Below, one piece after another: positions 40,849 through 47,183 of a stretch of 64,000 nucleotides of DNA (its first letter is position 1; each line of letters begins with the position of its first letter). Below the pieces are notes generated by a model, which was not told where the DNA came from, searched no databases, and worked only from the letters and a program-made list of their open reading frames with translations. Both the position numbers and the translations under genes were made by a program. Source of the stretch: Ruminococcus flavefaciens MA2007 (GTDB taxonomy: Bacteria; Bacillota; Clostridia; Oscillospirales; Ruminococcaceae); the NCBI RefSeq assembly GCF_000621845.1, contig NZ_JHXF01000009.1:124001-188000 (forward strand). The letters run 5' to 3'.

Positions 40849-41535
40849 TTAAACTCCGTATTTGACCTTAATGCGTCGGAGCTTCTCGCCGAAAGGCGGC
40901 GCGAGCAGATACAGGAACAGCACGTTGGACACTGCATATGACACGGTGTAGGGGATTGCCGATACAAGAGCAGCGGCGTAGAGCTTTATGCTGAATTCTT
41001 CGTTGTACCATAGAACAGTCCAGATATCCATGAAAAATGAGTACCCGAGACCAGCAAGAGCTCCGTATAAAAGCAGCAGTATACGGCTTCCGAGAAGCTG
41101 CTTTGAGAGCATACATGCAAATAGACCGATAAGTCCCCATGCAAGCATCTGAAAAGCCGTCCACGGTCCCTGTCCGAAGTAAAAATTGGAGAGAACAGCC
41201 GACAGCGAGCCCACAAGAAAGCCTGCCTCGCCGCCGAGATACAGTCCAGTGATTATAGTCAGCGCTGCAACGGGCTTTAAAAAGGGGATAAAGCGTCCTG
41301 CAAAGCAGAGAGCCGTCATTACGGCAACAATTACCATGCGCCGAGTACCTGTGGACTTTTTCTCAAAGCCTGCCGCAAACAGCACCAGAGAAAGCACAGC
41401 AACTGCAAGAGCGATGAGTATGTGCCTTTTGCCGTCAAAAACCAGTGCTCCAAGTATAGATATCGTGGGTATTATAAAAAAGGGAACAGCTATTCTTACG
41501 GCATTTCTGAGCTTTTCGTTTCGTATCAGGAGCAT
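40849..41535 (-). CDS. ECF transporter S component (corrinoid candidate)
   Basis: 228 residues with about six membrane helices. The segment MTALCFAGRFIPFLKPVAALTIITGLYLGGEAGFL shows the AxxxA-like helix and the loop pattern of substrate-specific components. It overlaps the ATPase gene by 10 bases, with its RBS AAGGAG inside that gene. As the last gene of a cobalamin-riboswitch operon, a corrinoid or a precursor is the expected substrate, which is inference from regulation. A long first helix pair before the core S-fold makes it larger than many S components. Confidence 0.82.
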   Translation of the reverse strand: MLLIRNEKLRNAVRIAVPFFIIPTISILGALVFDGKRHILIALAVAVLSLVLFAAGFEKKSTGTRRMVIVAVMTALCFAGRFIPFLKPVAALTIITGLYLGGEAGFLVGSLSAVLSNFYFGQGPWTAFQMLAWGLIGLFACMLSKQLLGSRILLLLYGALAGLGYSFFMDIWTVLWYNEEFSIKLYAAALVSAIPYTVSYAVSNVLFLYLLAPPFGEKLRRIKVKYGV

Positions 41536-43166
41536 GGCTTCTCCTTTCTGCCGTTAAGTGAGCAGAGCTTTACTGCGTCGTCGATAGTAACGGCATTGTC
41601 GTAATAACCGCGCGTCATACGGCTGACGGCTGTTGTGTAGAAGCTGTTCCTGCTGAAAAACTCATTGGGCTCCCCTGTAGAGACTATCCTGCCGCCGAAA
41701 AACATAGCACATCTGTCTGCGCATACAGCGGCAAATTCCACATCGTGAGTAACAATTACTACGGTAACACCTTTTTCTTTCAGTTTGCGGAGAACACCGA
41801 TTATATTGAGCTTTGCTCCTGCGTCCAGACCTTTTGTCGGCTCATCAAGAAGAAGCAATTTCGGCTTTGAAGCCAGCACCTTTGCCAGTGCCGTGAGCTG
41901 CTGCTCGCCGCCTGAAAGGTCATAGGGGTGCTTATCCATAAGGTGACTGATATCGTAGGGAAGTTCGGTTATATCAGCGTGACATTCATCGAGCTCCTGA
42001 TGGACCGTGCTTTTTAGGAATACTGTCTGAACGTCCTGCGGCAGCATGGCAAGACACTCACGATAGAGTGAGCGGTTCTTGTAATCCTTGAGACGCTTGC
42101 CGAACACCTTTATCCTGCCGCTGTATGGTTTTAGAAGTCCTGCTGCTGCGGAGAGTGCCGTTGTCTTTCCCGAGCCGTTTCCGCCGAGGATACAGAATAT
42201 CTCCTTTTCGTATACAGTGAAGCTGAGCCCGTCAAGTATATCTTTTCCCTCCCGTGAATAGCGGAAGAAAACATCGCTGAACTCCATAGCCGCGGAGTCC
42301 GAATGTTCATACAATGCCTGCGGCAGTCCGCGAGTAGTATTATTGTAGCCTTTTTCTATGAAGTCACGCCCCTCGCGGACTGTAAGCGGGCTGCTTCCGC
42401 TGCCGCTGAGCTCGGCGTAAAGCCGAGCCGCCGCAGGCATACCGCAGAGGATATCAGGACGTTCTTTCAGTTCGGATATGACCTCTGAGGGCTTACTGTT
42501 TGCTATCAGCTGACCTTTATCCATAACGAGAAGTTTGTCGCAAAGCGGTACAACGTCCTCAAGGCGGTGTTCTGCCATAATTATTGTAATGGACAGGTCG
42601 CTGCAAAGCCGCCTGAGAGTTGAAATGAAGTCTGCTGCGGCTATCGGATCAAGCTGAGCAGTCGGCTCGTCGAGAATAAGAAGTTCAGGCTGCATAACGA
42701 GGATAGAAGCAAGATTCAGCAGCTGCTTTTGTCCGCCCGAAAGCTCCGCAACATCTCTGTCGTACCAGTCTCCGATACCGAAGTAGCTTGCCATTTCGGC
42801 TATTCTTCGGGATATCTCATCAGGCGAAGTCCCGAGGTTTTCCAGTCCGAAAGCCAGCTCATGCCAGACCTTGTCAGTGACGACCTGCTGTTCGGGCTTC
42901 TGCATAACAAATCCAATCGCAGAAGCAGATCTTCTGTCGGGAAGCTGTGACAGCTCCACACCGCCGAAGCTTACCGAGCCATTTTTCTCACCGAGAGGTG
43001 TGAGCTCACGTTTCAGCATACGCAGCAGAGTAGACTTGCCGCTGCCCGTAGCTCCGCACAGTACGGCGAACTCGCCCCGTTCAATAGAAAAGGATATATT
43101 GCTGACAGCAGGTTCTGCGCACTGCGGATATGTAAAGGTCAGACCGCTGACCGCAAGTATTTCCAT
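41526..43166 (-). CDS. ECF transporter ATPase, two fused ABC domains
   Basis: 546 residues with both ATP-binding domains in one chain. Domain 1 (about 1-235) has Walker A GATGSGKST, signature LSGGQKQLL and Walker B LLILDEPTAQLD. Domain 2 (about 275-515) has GGNGSGKTT, LSGGEQQLT and LLLLDEPTKGLD, then a THD switch histidine. All catalytic residues appear intact. This corresponds to EcfA and EcfA' fused. Its start overlaps the T-component gene by 28 bases and its end overlaps the S-component gene. It energises uptake with the neighbouring T and S proteins. Confidence 0.93.
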   Translation of the reverse strand: MEILAVSGLTFTYPQCAEPAVSNISFSIERGEFAVLCGATGSGKSTLLRMLKRELTPLGEKNGSVSFGGVELSQLPDRRSASAIGFVMQKPEQQVVTDKVWHELAFGLENLGTSPDEISRRIAEMASYFGIGDWYDRDVAELSGGQKQLLNLASILVMQPELLILDEPTAQLDPIAAADFISTLRRLCSDLSITIIMAEHRLEDVVPLCDKLLVMDKGQLIANSKPSEVISELKERPDILCGMPAAARLYAELSGSGSSPLTVREGRDFIEKGYNNTTRGLPQALYEHSDSAAMEFSDVFFRYSREGKDILDGLSFTVYEKEIFCILGGNGSGKTTALSAAAGLLKPYSGRIKVFGKRLKDYKNRSLYRECLAMLPQDVQTVFLKSTVHQELDECHADITELPYDISHLMDKHPYDLSGGEQQLTALAKVLASKPKLLLLDEPTKGLDAGAKLNIIGVLRKLKEKGVTVVIVTHDVEFAAVCADRCAMFFGGRIVSTGEPNEFFSRNSFYTTAVSRMTRGYYDNAVTIDDAVKLCSLNGRKEKPCS

Positions 43167-44017
43167 TTAAGGTTCACCACCAATTCAAGTATCATGGGCA
43201 TGAGTATCATCAGCCCGTATGAGATAAGTCCAAGAACTCCAAGCATATCGGGAGCTTTTGCTGTTATGGACGGATAGAACACAAAGCTGAGGGACTTTGT
43301 TCCTACAGCTGCACAGGTAATACCGAGAAGCCCGAGTTCTGTCAGCAAAAATGCGATATCAGCCGCCGCAAATCTGAATCTTCTCATCTGAGTTCGTCTG
43401 CCTGTGCCGAAGCCTCTCGCCTCCATACTGTCGGCGGTTATTATGCCGTTTTCCAGCGCCCATGTGACCATAACGGAGAAAACACGGGACTTTCCCTTGA
43501 TGTCGTCGATTATATTATCGTCCCTGTAAAGTCCCATTGCAGTCTGTGCGGCGTTTATTTTTGCAGACTGCCTGCCGAACAGCGGTACGAATCTAAGCGC
43601 CATTGAAAGCACCAGTGACAGCTTCGGAGAGAGAGCTCCCGTAATGTAAAGAAGCTTCTCGCTTGTCATTATCTGTGTAAATGAACGAAGCCAGTACAGC
43701 ACTCCGATTATCATAGCAGCTGAATTTAAGCCATACAGCGTGGCTTCAAGGGTTACAGGATTGTGGTTCATGACAAAGAGTACAGTTTTTCCGTTGTGTG
43801 ACACAAGAGGATTAGCCAGTGCCAGTATCAGAAACAGCACCCAGAAGAATATATGAGTTTTCCCGTGGGACAGACCGTTGCGCATGACAAAGAATGCAAC
43901 AGCTCCCACCAGAGATATGACCATAAGCAGGGGATAATTGCAGAACATAGCTATTCCCGTTACGCTTAGAAACCAGACGGCTATGACTATTGGATTGTAT
44001 TCGGAAAAGCTTCTCAT
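43139..44017 (-). CDS. ECF transporter T component (CbiQ/EcfT-like)
   Basis: 292 residues. Several membrane helices and the coupling motif region MALRFVPLFGRQSAKINAAQTAMG, with SMEARGFGTGRRTQ later, the Ala-Arg-Gly motif that couples to ATPases. The start ATG lies in an ATGA overlap with the upstream receptor gene, with GAGG 9 bases before it. It links the S component to the ATPase. As the T component lies in the same operon as its own ATPase and S protein, this is a dedicated (group I-like) ECF system. Confidence 0.9.
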   Translation of the reverse strand: MRSFSEYNPIVIAVWFLSVTGIAMFCNYPLLMVISLVGAVAFFVMRNGLSHGKTHIFFWVLFLILALANPLVSHNGKTVLFVMNHNPVTLEATLYGLNSAAMIIGVLYWLRSFTQIMTSEKLLYITGALSPKLSLVLSMALRFVPLFGRQSAKINAAQTAMGLYRDDNIIDDIKGKSRVFSVMVTWALENGIITADSMEARGFGTGRRTQMRRFRFAAADIAFLLTELGLLGITCAAVGTKSLSFVFYPSITAKAPDMLGVLGLISYGLMILMPMILELVVNLKWKYLRSAV

Positions 44018-45828
44018 TTTTCATATACCTCGTTAAGGTCGTGGCCTATCTCGCAGGTGTACAGCCACTCTATTTTATCGCCGTCGGAGAGCTCGTATTC
44101 GCCGCATCCTCTTGACGGAGTAATGCCGTTCACATGATACACCCAGCCTGACAGGTCTCCGAAATCATACTCGTAAATATAGTTTATGCCTGCTATGTAG
44201 ACCATACCGTGAGCATTGCCAGCGCTGCCCTTGTTTTCGACTTGAATACCGTAGGTCTGTGCAGCTTCTGTGAGAATATCGAAAACTGTCTCGCCGCTTT
44301 CAAAGTCAAAAGCCGTAGGCGGCAGTATAACGCCGTCCGCAGGGATATGCTCGGCCTTGCCTGCGATAGTGTCACAGCGTATCTCCATAGTTACAGTACC
44401 TGCGATGTTCTTTTTTACTTTTTTCTCGCCGCTGTAGTAGTCCTCGGCGGACTGTATATCCAGCAAAAGTACAACAGCTATAGCCGCACCTGCCACAAGA
44501 ACGATGAACAGATAGTTCTTCCAGCTTCGCTTTCCGAAAATGAAAATAACAAGCGAAATTACCCCTACTGCACCGATTATAATAATAATTATCATCGGCT
44601 TGTGGTTCTTACCCTTGGGAGCATTATTGCTCTGCGCATTCAAAGCTGTTGAAGTAACTTTTGCCCCCGAATTCAGTACAGTTCCTGAAACAGTAACAGT
44701 TTCAGCACCTGTTTCAGTAGTTTTAGCAAGAGTTGTGCCTGCTTTTGCTGTTGTTACAGTGCTTGTCTTTGAAGTCGTGGATTTAGCTTCTGCAGCAGCC
44801 GCAGTCTGAGTCGTACTATGCTCCTGCTTCTGATGTGCGCCCTCAGTGTTGCGCTGTGGAGCTTCGTGAACTCTGCGGTTATCCAGCACAAGCAGGGGAG
44901 ACTTTCCCTCGGTCATGCGCTGGAAAGCTATCAGCGAGTAAAAAGCCTGTACCGTAGCCGTAGGATTGCTGCCGCCTCCCTTAGTATGGCAGAAGCTGCC
45001 GTCGTCAAGGCGATATTCCGCAATGCCGTCGATAAGGTCGTGACCGTCCTTGATAAAGCGCTCGTCGTACCTGCAATCTATCCCCAGAGCCGACAATGCA
45101 ACAAGTACCTGAGATGTGCTCTCGGGATTTGGCGTGCCGAAGCTCTCATAGCCGCCGTTTGACTTCTGCTTTGCCGACAGGAAGTCCAGTGCCCTGTCCA
45201 CAGCCTCAGAGACATCGCTCCTGTCATTATAGGGAGCAAGAGCCTGAACAGTCATTGCTGTTACGTCGATATCGCCGAAGTCTCCGAAAAGAGCCCAGCC
45301 GCCATCGCCGTACTGCATGGAGAGTATACTATCCACAACCGAATCTGCTGTGAAACGGGAGCAGGTATAGCCGTTGTTGAGCACATGAAGTCCGTATATC
45401 CAGCTCATCATGCCCTGTTCGCCGATAGAGCTGTCCAGTATATCAGAGATATAGCTGTTATCGCTGCCTGCCGCCGCCAGTCCGAGAGCATATTTCTCTC
45501 TTGAAGTTGCCGAGGGTACATTATTGCTTGAAAGATAGTCCGTGAGGGAGCGCTCATAGGCAGAAAGGTCGGAATACCCGTACTGACTGAGGGCGAGAGC
45601 GTACCAGTCAGAGGTCTTGCCTGCACCCTCGGCTATCTCACTGCCGAGCCATTCTTCTACGCTGCCTGCGCCGCACTGACTTAGCTTATAATCAACGATA
45701 CCGCCGATAAGGTCGCTGACCTCCTCGGCGGTATGTTCGCTGCACTGAGCTCCCATAGGGACACAGCCCAGTGATAAAACCAATGTAAGTACAATGCACA
45801 GAAAGCCTGTGAGTACCTTAATCCTCAT
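44014..45828 (-). CDS. Membrane-anchored intrinsic-factor/transcobalamin-like protein (alpha/alpha repeats + DUF4430)
   Basis: 604 residues. A signal peptide covers about 1-29. Alpha/alpha repeats of the prenyltransferase/terpene-cyclase superfamily lie at about 60-320 (YGDGGWALFGDFGDIDVTAM, SNGGYESFG, DDGSFCHTKGG). A Thr/Ser/Ala-rich linker follows at about 330-400, then two membrane helices (about 415-435 and 440-460). A DUF4430 domain comes last (about 490-600; GETVFDILTEAAQTYGIQV, GWVYHVNGITPSRGCGEYELSDGDKIEWLY). Human intrinsic factor and transcobalamin combine the same two folds to bind cobalamin. The gene is in a cobalamin-riboswitch operon between a surface protein and an ECF importer, which makes an extracellular corrinoid-capturing receptor likely. 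The membrane hairpin between the two domains is unusual. Confidence 0.8.
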   Translation of the reverse strand: MRIKVLTGFLCIVLTLVLSLGCVPMGAQCSEHTAEEVSDLIGGIVDYKLSQCGAGSVEEWLGSEIAEGAGKTSDWYALALSQYGYSDLSAYERSLTDYLSSNNVPSATSREKYALGLAAAGSDNSYISDILDSSIGEQGMMSWIYGLHVLNNGYTCSRFTADSVVDSILSMQYGDGGWALFGDFGDIDVTAMTVQALAPYNDRSDVSEAVDRALDFLSAKQKSNGGYESFGTPNPESTSQVLVALSALGIDCRYDERFIKDGHDLIDGIAEYRLDDGSFCHTKGGGSNPTATVQAFYSLIAFQRMTEGKSPLLVLDNRRVHEAPQRNTEGAHQKQEHSTTQTAAAAEAKSTTSKTSTVTTAKAGTTLAKTTETGAETVTVSGTVLNSGAKVTSTALNAQSNNAPKGKNHKPMIIIIIIGAVGVISLVIFIFGKRSWKNYLFIVLVAGAAIAVVLLLDIQSAEDYYSGEKKVKKNIAGTVTMEIRCDTIAGKAEHIPADGVILPPTAFDFESGETVFDILTEAAQTYGIQVENKGSAGNAHGMVYIAGINYIYEYDFGDLSGWVYHVNGITPSRGCGEYELSDGDKIEWLYTCEIGHDLNEVYEK

Positions 45829-46735
45829 TCTTTCTTCTCAGAACAAAAGCAGTAGCAACAGCGCCTGCAAGACCGAATACAGCCAGTCCTGCACCCTTTA
45901 CGCCTGTCTTTGGAGAGTTGCCTGAAGCTTTAGTTGTTGCCTTTGTGGTAGTCTTTGTAGTTGTTGCAGTAGTAGTGGTCGTAGTAGAAGAGTTAGTAGT
46001 TGTTGTCAGGGGAGCTGTAGTTGTTGTAGTAGTCAGTGCAGGATCGACCTCGACCATATAAACAGGAGGAACGATATTTACACTGTCAGAAGCTGCGCTT
46101 ACGTAATTAGAGCCTGCTTCTGAGAATTTTACAGTAACCTTGCCGTCGTTATCGGTAACTAAGTCAGTTGCCTTGCCGTTTAAGGTTATCTTTGCGTTTG
46201 CAAGCTTGTTTTCAACAAGATCGCCGTTTGCACCGAATGTGTAATATGTTAGAGTCAGCGGAACTTCTGCGTCAACAGCAACAGGCTCGCCCTTTTTAGC
46301 GTTAAAGAAGCTGTAATAGTAGTTATAGTCCTTTGGATCGGGATAGATAAAAGCCTGTATCTGGTCGCCGTCCTTTATTTCGTCTGCAAGTCCCATGGAC
46401 ATCTTGTCATTTACGTAGTAGCCGTAGCTGCCGCCGTTTTCAACGCCCCAGAGCTTGTCAAGACCGAGTCCCCACTGTCCTACAGAGGACTTGTAGCCTG
46501 CTGCTGCGCCGCCCTCGAACTTATTCTCGTGAGCGATATAGAGAGCGTCGTTGATAGTGAGCTTGCCGTCGCTGTCGATATCGGTAACAGTGATAGGCTC
46601 CTGAATGAGAACAAGATCCTTTTTGTCGTTGGAAACAGTAACAAAGACCTTAGTCTCGTCAGCAGCGAATGAAGTCATACAGACAGCTGAACATGAGATA
46701 AGCAGAGCAGCTGCCATAGCGATAGTTTTTTTCAT
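45818..46735 (-). CDS. Sortase-type surface protein with DUF4430-like domain
   Basis: 305 residues. A signal peptide covers about 1-25. The first domain (about 28-135) resembles DUF4430 (LTINDALYIAHENKF, GGSYGYYVND and DEIKDGDQIQAFIYPD). A beta-sandwich-like segment (about 140-225) and a Thr-rich stalk (about 235-270) follow. The C-terminal signal is SPKTG, then a hydrophobic helix, then RRKNED. SPKTG is the type recognised by some clostridial sortases, so wall attachment is likely. It is the first gene after the cobalamin riboswitch and overlaps the next gene by 11 bases. I infer the outermost corrinoid-binding or corrinoid-handing protein. There is no sortase gene in the window. Confidence 0.78.
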   Translation of the reverse strand: MKKTIAMAAALLISCSAVCMTSFAADETKVFVTVSNDKKDLVLIQEPITVTDIDSDGKLTINDALYIAHENKFEGGAAAGYKSSVGQWGLGLDKLWGVENGGSYGYYVNDKMSMGLADEIKDGDQIQAFIYPDPKDYNYYYSFFNAKKGEPVAVDAEVPLTLTYYTFGANGDLVENKLANAKITLNGKATDLVTDNDGKVTVKFSEAGSNYVSAASDSVNIVPPVYMVEVDPALTTTTTTAPLTTTTNSSTTTTTTATTTKTTTKATTKASGNSPKTGVKGAGLAVFGLAGAVATAFVLRRKNED

Positions 46736-46765
46736 AAAAACCTACTCCTTAAAATAATGTCGGGG

Positions 46766-46958
46766 ACAATAAAAAAGCCTTTCCGCATTGCGAAAAAGCG
46801 CAGCAAACAGCTCCACAGCGATACTGAGGAGTTCTCTGGCAACGTTTTTCACTGTCCAAAAACGTGTAATTACCCATTGTCTGACGAGCGATCCGACTAT
46901 ACGGCAGTGACTGCTGCGACGGATTTGCACCGTACTTCCCTCAGTTTCAGACAAAAAT
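46766..46958 (-). promoter_or_regulatory. Cobalamin riboswitch with terminator
   Basis: On the minus strand the leader reads GGGAAGTACGGTGCAAATCC, matching the conserved core of the adenosylcobalamin-riboswitch family, followed by GCAGCAGTCACTGCCGTA, a B12-box-like segment with GTCACTG instead of the usual GCCACTG. An expression platform with the hairpin CTTTTTCGC-AAT-GCGGAAAGG and a T run ends at about 46771. High corrinoid should cause termination before the operon. It begins at the predicted transcription start. Confidence 0.88.
46776..46800 (-). terminator. Riboswitch-controlled terminator
   Basis: Stem CTTTTTCGC/GCGGAAAGG with G-U pairs, followed by TTTTTT on the minus strand, 40 bases before the first gene's ATG. 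Confidence 0.75.
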
Positions 46959-46987
46959 ATTATAGCATATAGTTTGCTGAAATGCAA
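46959..46987 (-). promoter_or_regulatory. Sigma-A promoter of the corrinoid-uptake operon
   Basis: Minus strand: -35 TTGCAT (46987-46982), a 17-base spacer, and -10 TATAAT (46964-46959). The start point near 46952 is directly at the riboswitch aptamer. Confidence 0.8.
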
Positions 46988-47109: not shown

Positions 47110-47183
47110 GTCCCAATAGCTCAGTAGGATAGAGCGACTGCCTCCTAAGCAGTAGGCCGGAGGTTCGACTCCTCTTTGGGACG
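47110..47183 (+). tRNA. tRNA-Arg (anticodon CCU)
   Basis: A full cloverleaf can be folded. The acceptor stem is GTCCCAA/TTGGGAC and the D arm is GCTC...GAGC. The anticodon arm is ACTGC-CTCCTAA-GCAGT, with anticodon CCT reading AGG. The T arm is GGAGG-TTCGACT-CCTCT with one G-U pair. The discriminator is G and CCA is not encoded. A strong terminator follows. Confidence 0.95.

Follow-up and report, generated by a model that had tools for sequence, protein, structure and literature searches.

Toroid proteins carrying a transcobalamin-type domain of the SLBB class were described by Burroughs et al. (2007; PMC1796856), whose account, in the passages drawn on here, lists fusion of the toroid to the transcobalamin-type beta-grasp domain, signal peptides, wall anchors, a second, paralogous SLBB protein, an SLBB protein with a beta-propeller and CbiO/CbiQ-type genes, states that the hosts usually lack key vitamin B12 biosynthesis enzymes, predicts Gram-positive B12 scavenging for this protein class and proposes a Gram-positive origin of the animal B12 carriers. 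On the import side, CbrT, the S component of an energy-coupling factor (ECF) transporter of Lactobacillus delbrueckii, is an experimentally demonstrated transporter of cobalamin and cobinamide and, in the parts of the paper used here, one of eight S components that are predicted to draw on a common ECF module (Santos et al. 2018; PMC5997447). In the sections of a review cited here, BtuFCD homologues and the CbrT importer are named for Gram-positives and a surface capture protein, BtuG, for Bacteroidetes only (PMC6977713), and a Lacticaseibacillus protein table contains an 'Additional lipoprotein component of putative cobalamin ECF transporter' in a paper that also reports a DUF4430 gene beside rtpR, the identity of the two not being stated in its passages used here (PMC9963975). 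Searches of open-licence papers turned up no study in which bacterial toroid/DUF4430 proteins had been tested experimentally. Here we analysed a 64,000-nucleotide stretch of contig NZ_JHXF01000009.1 of Ruminococcus flavefaciens MA2007, a rumen/gut-type bacterium (hereafter the window), in which five minus-strand genes behind a cobalamin riboswitch encode a wall-anchored surface protein, a membrane-anchored receptor and a complete ECF importer. Corrinoid (cobalamin/cobinamide-type) uptake is the best reading of this operon, to which we assign a probability of about 0.82, because the riboswitch, the carrier-like folds, the CbrT-family S component and the finding of the same gene set in relatives point the same way.

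The operon shares with the class described in 2007 a beta-grasp domain, an exported and anchored toroid fusion, a second SLBB protein (by fold) and CbiO/CbiQ-type genes. A CbrT-type S component, a riboswitch and a membrane hairpin between the two halves of the receptor are not mentioned in the cited passages of Burroughs et al., and, against the generalization made there, the present host has many cobamide biosynthesis genes, although CbiL was not found over its cut-off. The idea of corrinoid capture, which an initial annotation of this DNA had put forward, is supported by the folds, the riboswitch and the CbrT-like S component, although it is not new, having been predicted for the protein class in 2007. 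The importer is of the same kind as ECF-CbrT of L. delbrueckii, its S component being related to CbrT and its T/A/A' module being complete; it differs in that T and A-A' genes dedicated to this S component, and the genes for two exported transcobalamin-like proteins, belong to one operon. To the 2007 account the present analysis adds a CbrT-type S component, counts of riboswitches, a receptor with two anchors that is split in some relatives, a propeller heading the operon in others, and co-existence with cobamide biosynthesis genes; what is new in kind is the anatomy of the system.

Operon organization and control region

The five open reading frames (ORFs) overlap consecutively by 11, 4, 28 and 10 bases, exactly as the initial annotation had it, coordinates included. 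The riboswitch aptamer at 46878..46953 (minus strand, as are all operon features below) scored 42.1 bits with the model of the adenosylcobalamin class AdoCbl-II (RF01689; gathering score 36.5, E = 1.1e-6), so that the cobalamin riboswitch first proposed by inspection now stands over a curated threshold. It was refound at E = 8.2e-6 by R1, a riboswitch model built from 15 relatives' loci with the window excluded, and no other RF01689 match at E up to 1 occurred in the 3.39 Mb assembly; a second R1 match in the window (33434-33334, minus strand, E = 0.41) was taken as chance. Transcription attenuation is suggested as the output mode, since a terminator-like hairpin with six Ts (46777..46799) sits between the aptamer and the first start codon; the hairpin scan found one such structure, against a mean of 0.3 in shuffled sequences. 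A candidate promoter (46959..46987; TTGCAT, 17 bases, TATAAT, with TG before the -10 element) was read by eye, a consensus promoter scan having missed it because its -35 element is weak. A tRNA gene at 47110-47183 (plus strand) lies directly upstream of the riboswitch and is divergent from it.

The last three genes form the complete importer that had been recognized initially, now backed by Pfam and NCBIfam families. The T component (292 residues, 43139..44017) belongs to the CbiQ family (PF02361, E = 3.6e-8), and the fused ATPase A-A' (546 residues, 41526..43166) matched ABC_tran (PF00005) in two stretches and TIGR04520 over its cut-off. The closest solved relative of the S component (228 residues, 40849..41535) is CbrT (6fnp_A), reached at E = 5.6e-9 by phmmer and at E = 1.2e-22 by a profile of 21 S components.

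Predicted folds of the two exported proteins

The receptor (604 residues, 44014..45828) comprises an N-terminal hydrophobic segment, an alpha/alpha toroid at residues 34-306 (44911..45729; SQHop_cyclase_C, PF13243, E = 1.6e-6), a linker, a membrane hairpin and a DUF4430, that is, transcobalamin-like C-terminal, domain at residues 477-598 (44035..44400; PF14478, E = 9.4e-16), which would lie outside the cell and adjoin the membrane. The initial annotation had described an intrinsic-factor-like two-domain receptor; both domains are present in that order, but the halves are not adjacent, being separated by an 89-residue Ser/Thr/Ala-rich linker and two neighbouring hydrophobic segments at residues 408-435 and 435-462 (44443..44607; helices 410-430 and 436-455), read as a hairpin by hydropathy. 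In a Foldseek comparison of the receptor model, 13 of the 14 top hits were transcobalamin, haptocorrin or intrinsic factor, with alignments spanning both domains. VIA-align listed no transcobalamin chain for this model in 50 rows, all of them on the toroid, which by the tool's own note says nothing against the Foldseek match. Thus the predicted model resembles the human carriers transcobalamin, haptocorrin and intrinsic factor, with the toroid first and the beta-grasp domain second; unlike these soluble proteins with directly joined domains, the receptor is membrane-anchored, has a linker and a hairpin between its halves and shows no significant sequence similarity to them, and its corrinoid ligand is presumed.

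The surface protein (305 residues, 45818..46735) consists of an N-terminal hydrophobic segment, a predicted transcobalamin-type beta-grasp domain, an immunoglobulin (Ig)-like domain, a Thr-rich linker and an NPXTG sortase anchor, the last of which (NF033846, 26.5 bits against a cut-off of 23.5) bears out the wall anchoring assumed earlier. Export of both proteins, also assumed earlier, agrees with their N-terminal hydrophobic segments, whose assignment as signal peptides is a reading of hydropathy and not the output of a dedicated predictor. The surface protein had further been called a DUF4430 protein; Pfam, NCBIfam and PDB sequence searches gave no DUF4430 or transcobalamin match in it, and the transcobalamin-type domain (residues 28-130, 46346..46654) appears in the predicted fold only. 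With the model as query, the top 13 rows of VIA-align were haptocorrin or transcobalamin beta domains and 3u7z, whereas hits 1-4 of Foldseek were Ig-type chains (E up to 0.001), a transcobalamin beta domain following at rank 13 (E = 3.2e-3, TM-score to the target 0.66); the VIA comparison tells the beta-grasp and Ig-type domains apart. Taken together, the models of both exported proteins match transcobalamin domains, the receptor in Foldseek and the surface protein in VIA-align, a check for which the initial annotation had called. Near the start of the beta-grasp helix, the surface protein has an EF-hand/dockerin-like DxDxDG loop (residues 52-57, window 46565-46582), whose D52, D54 and D56 are invariant across 65 aligned sequences and which, judged from the motif, is a possible calcium site.

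Recurrence in relatives

Two sets of relatives were compared. For the first, a receptor search matched 41 of the 119 genomes of a family sample, and 40 stretches covering 39 of these genomes were fetched (G078 and G088 are left out, and not every match per genome was fetched). A DUF4430 match was present in 29 stretches (28 relatives and the window's own locus), among which T, A-A' and S were all matched in 22, some of them in three (L037, L043, L059) and none was in view in four (L039, which is truncated, L054, L055 and L062). A cobalamin riboswitch was found upstream in 19 of the 29, 16 scoring over the Rfam gathering score and three more (L035, L036, L056) being detected by R1, which was built without these loci; L035 and L036 have sub-threshold Rfam matches (RF01689, 27.3 bits, and RF01482, 24.9 bits, respectively) and were counted via R1 only. 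The Rfam scan covered L034-L069 and the window, and L070-L072 were covered by R1 instead. RF00174 is otherwise sparse in the family sample: 137 matches (E up to 0.01) are spread over 81 of the 119 genomes. The toroid alone proved a misleading marker of relatives: 11 of the 40 stretches (L051, L060, L061, L064-L067, L069-L072) have a toroid match without a DUF4430, S or T match, and these, used as controls, yielded no R1 riboswitch match. One of them, L051, is the stretch used for G083 and lies on a different contig from the DUF4430 match of that genome; an uncounted DUF4430 and toroid pair on its contig C1 (29512-31774, minus strand), known from coordinates, has an RF00174 match just upstream.

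The second set comprises named loci, the best 80 of at least 576 confirmed matches to the S-component profile, and therefore leans to close relatives; it includes R. flavefaciens and many rumen and gut isolates and is not independent of the first set, L096 and L036 apparently being one contig, to judge by length. A complete operon (T, A-A', S, DUF4430 and toroid) was found in 63 of these loci, with toroid and DUF4430 on a single ORF in 54 of the 63. R1 matched upstream of 49 complete operons, in 48 cases within about 600 bases of the first recognized gene and in L154 at 1522. All 51 R1 matches (E up to 0.05) in the 1.17 Mb searched lie upstream of this operon type, the two besides the 49 being L150 and L156, which belong to the remaining 17 loci, several of them truncated, though in L097, L099 and L100 an S gene is present and no T or A-A' is in view. 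DUF4430 was matched in the same stretch as the S component in 65 of the 80 loci. The linkage of this operon type to the riboswitch is thus recurrent: with respect to the control of homologous operons, which the initial annotation had proposed to check, most stand under a cobalamin riboswitch (19/29 and 49/63), but not all do.

Alternative arrangements of the receptor

Toroid and DUF4430 are encoded side by side in some genomes and by a single gene in the window. In the 29 loci of the first set they share one ORF in the window's order in 10 and occupy separate ORFs in 12, with other arrangements in three (L045, L056, L062) and one locus cut off (L059). The halves of the receptor align with separately anchored proteins of such relatives. 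The beta protein of L046 (184 residues) is matched over its residues 3-174 by receptor residues 437-598, which include the second hydrophobic segment (40% identity, E = 7e-41); the beta proteins of L046 and L043, which stand alone and are anchored at their N termini, are 40-41% identical to the C-terminal part as a whole, from 437/442 to 597/598; and residues 1-360 align with the separate toroid protein of L043 (34% identity, E = 1e-45). From these alignments, the membrane hairpin would be the remnant expected if a toroid protein anchored at its C terminus had been fused to a beta protein anchored at its N terminus. A tree of S components (104 rows) places 57 of the 63 fused rows, together with 15 labelled 'none' and one 'split', in a clade of 73 rows with support 100/96. 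The other six fused rows fall outside it, 19 changes are required for the fused label, and the tree is rooted at its midpoint only. It accordingly does not support a single origin of the fusion, nor does it settle how frequent the fusion was and in which direction it went. An ORF joining S and DUF4430 in L050 (3374-5254, plus strand) was not used as evidence of contact between S component and receptor, because its S part misses its last part and a deletion or an assembly fault is possible.

The three remaining loci (L047, L052, L058) have no toroid match, and a beta-propeller protein heads the operon instead (L047:4170-6809; L052:8855-11494, minus strand; L058:9411-11045, minus strand), each behind an RF00174 riboswitch. 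The Pfam propeller match passes the cut-off in L052 and L058 and falls short of it in L047, the three propellers are homologous to one another, and that of L058, the sole one compared with the PDB, matches PQQ/BamB-type propellers. The beta-propeller is a possible alternative capture head. Such an exported propeller recalls BtuG of gut Bacteroidetes, described, in the passages cited, as surface corrinoid capture ahead of an importer (PMC6977713), a likeness of arrangement and not the outcome of a direct homology comparison. Downstream of the ECF genes of L047 (11764-15802, plus strand), a CbiD-like gene and two genes resembling Mg-chelatase-type ATPases were seen by inspection, which would put B12 synthesis and uptake within one cluster.

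Proposed corrinoid uptake and competing explanations

In a corrinoid uptake system of this kind, the exported proteins would bind corrinoids and relay them from wall to membrane. Low intracellular adenosylcobalamin would let transcription proceed past the terminator; corrinoid would be caught in the wall zone by the wall-anchored beta-domain protein and by the toroid hanging on its long flexible linker; the toroid would shut onto the DUF4430 domain near the membrane, with the corrinoid held between the two as it is in transcobalamin, although its partner could be either of the two beta domains, the surface protein's or the receptor's; and the ligand would be handed to the CbrT-like S component, with the T/A-A' module driving release inside. 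A more specific version, which we offer tentatively and at somewhat less than even odds, is that the receptor is a two-piece membrane-tethered intrinsic factor serving the ECF transporter, its halves closing round the corrinoid only beside the CbrT-like S component, with toroid and beta-propeller as exchangeable heads. ECF importers are, to our knowledge, generally thought to need no extracytoplasmic binding protein. If such a two-piece receptor exists, ECF importers gain a dedicated external receptor, and the proposed bacterial origin of the animal B12 carriers gains a concrete ancestral context. If corrinoid uptake as such is correct, Gram-positive rumen and gut bacteria catch corrinoids with the same two folds as animals and feed them to a dedicated importer, and surface capture joins the picture of competition for cobamides among Firmicutes. 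It makes testable the B12 binding by the bacterial domains predicted in 2007 and the descent of animal intrinsic factor and transcobalamin from such a system.

Several observations weigh against corrinoid uptake. The ligand is putative. The receptor model deviates from the animal carriers by a whole-chain root-mean-square deviation of 8.5-14 Å, the toroid alone aligns best with terpene cyclases in VIA-align, and a DUF4430 profile does not reach transcobalamin significantly by itself (transcobalamin-1 best at E = 0.58, transcobalamin-2 at E = 0.67); a single-sequence search listed no transcobalamin-family chain up to E = 1. By Rfam and R1, no riboswitch was detected in 10 of the 29 first-set loci, of which four reach a contig end (L038, L039, L046, L059), leaving 6 of 25 with upstream DNA in view (L034, L037, L041, L045, L054, L062). 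In the second set, an R1 match is lacking in 14 of the 63 complete operons, or in 9 of 58 when the five that start at most 260 bases from the end of the fetched stretch are set aside (L091, L094, L105, L137, L153), and DUF4430 is unmatched in 15 of the 80 S-component loci, some of them truncated. The locus L055 has a riboswitch but no ECF genes in view, and the toroid/DUF4430 proteins of L054 (11342-14932, minus strand) and L062 (2937-7048, plus strand) occur without T/A-A' genes or a detected riboswitch. Since these last two adjoin DnaJ-type genes (in L054 a DnaJ-domain protein and a DUF5685 protein, both by Pfam, and a small protein without assignment; the neighbours in L062 look alike by inspection), toroid/DUF4430 domains are not always tied to B12 and perhaps have another ligand there. 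Finally, with many genes for cobamide biosynthesis in the genome and a second cobalamin riboswitch preceding a BtuFCD-like set, it is not obvious why this importer would be needed.

Part of this evidence would also fit a system in which the ECF transporter imports corrinoid while the two exported proteins serve for something other than capture, for example the binding of a carrier protein or of glycans of the wall or the host. The best alignments of the toroid are with enzymes, some toroid/DUF4430 proteins have no ECF genes in view beside them (L054, L055, L062), and the toroid is not indispensable, because a beta-propeller protein replaces it in three relatives. We nevertheless consider this alternative unlikely, given that both exported proteins have transcobalamin-type beta domains by fold, that they are the first two of the overlapping genes under the same cobalamin riboswitch, and that DUF4430 accompanies the S component in 65 of 80 loci.

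Import of cobalt ion for corrin synthesis is a far weaker candidate. In its favour are the CbiQ/CbiO type of the T and A genes, the presence of cbi genes in the genome, and the fact that cobalamin riboswitches often control cobalt importers as well. Against this, Pfam found no CbiM/CbiN-type subunit among the five operon proteins and the S component is CbrT-like, the next chain lying 18 orders of magnitude away, for which reasons cobalt import was rejected as the leading reading; a transcobalamin-type receptor would moreover be pointless for a cobalt ion. Equally improbable is an S component for another vitamin or a tetrapyrrole, tied to B12 only indirectly by the riboswitch: Pfam's best family for the S gene is ECF-ribofla_trS and the riboswitch is undetected in some relatives, but its linkage is recurrent and, with the profile that reaches CbrT at 1.2e-22, the next chains were 4hzu at E = 1.5e-4 and the riboflavin uptake protein 3p5n at E = 0.0093, on which comparison riboflavin import was rejected.

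Cobamide genes elsewhere in the genome

The assembly, which is 98% complete, contains one RF01689 match, that of the window, and one RF00174 match, on contig 19. Both cobalamin riboswitches precede uptake-type genes, RF01689 the ECF operon and RF00174 a Peripla_BP_2/FecCD/ABC set like BtuFCD, which is accompanied by a CbiK-type cobaltochelatase with a lipoprotein-like start. On contig 19, CbiD, CbiH, CbiE-CbiT, CbiA, CbiP, CbiB and CobT were found over NCBIfam cut-offs and a CbiG-like protein below its cut-off, while Pfam identified CbiC, CbiJ, CobS, CobU and another tetrapyrrole methylase; for CbiL, no match in the assembly exceeded the cut-off. Imported corrinoids could plausibly be completed by CbiB, CobU, CobS and CobT. 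The genome also encodes a methionine synthase with a B12-binding domain, named by inspection.

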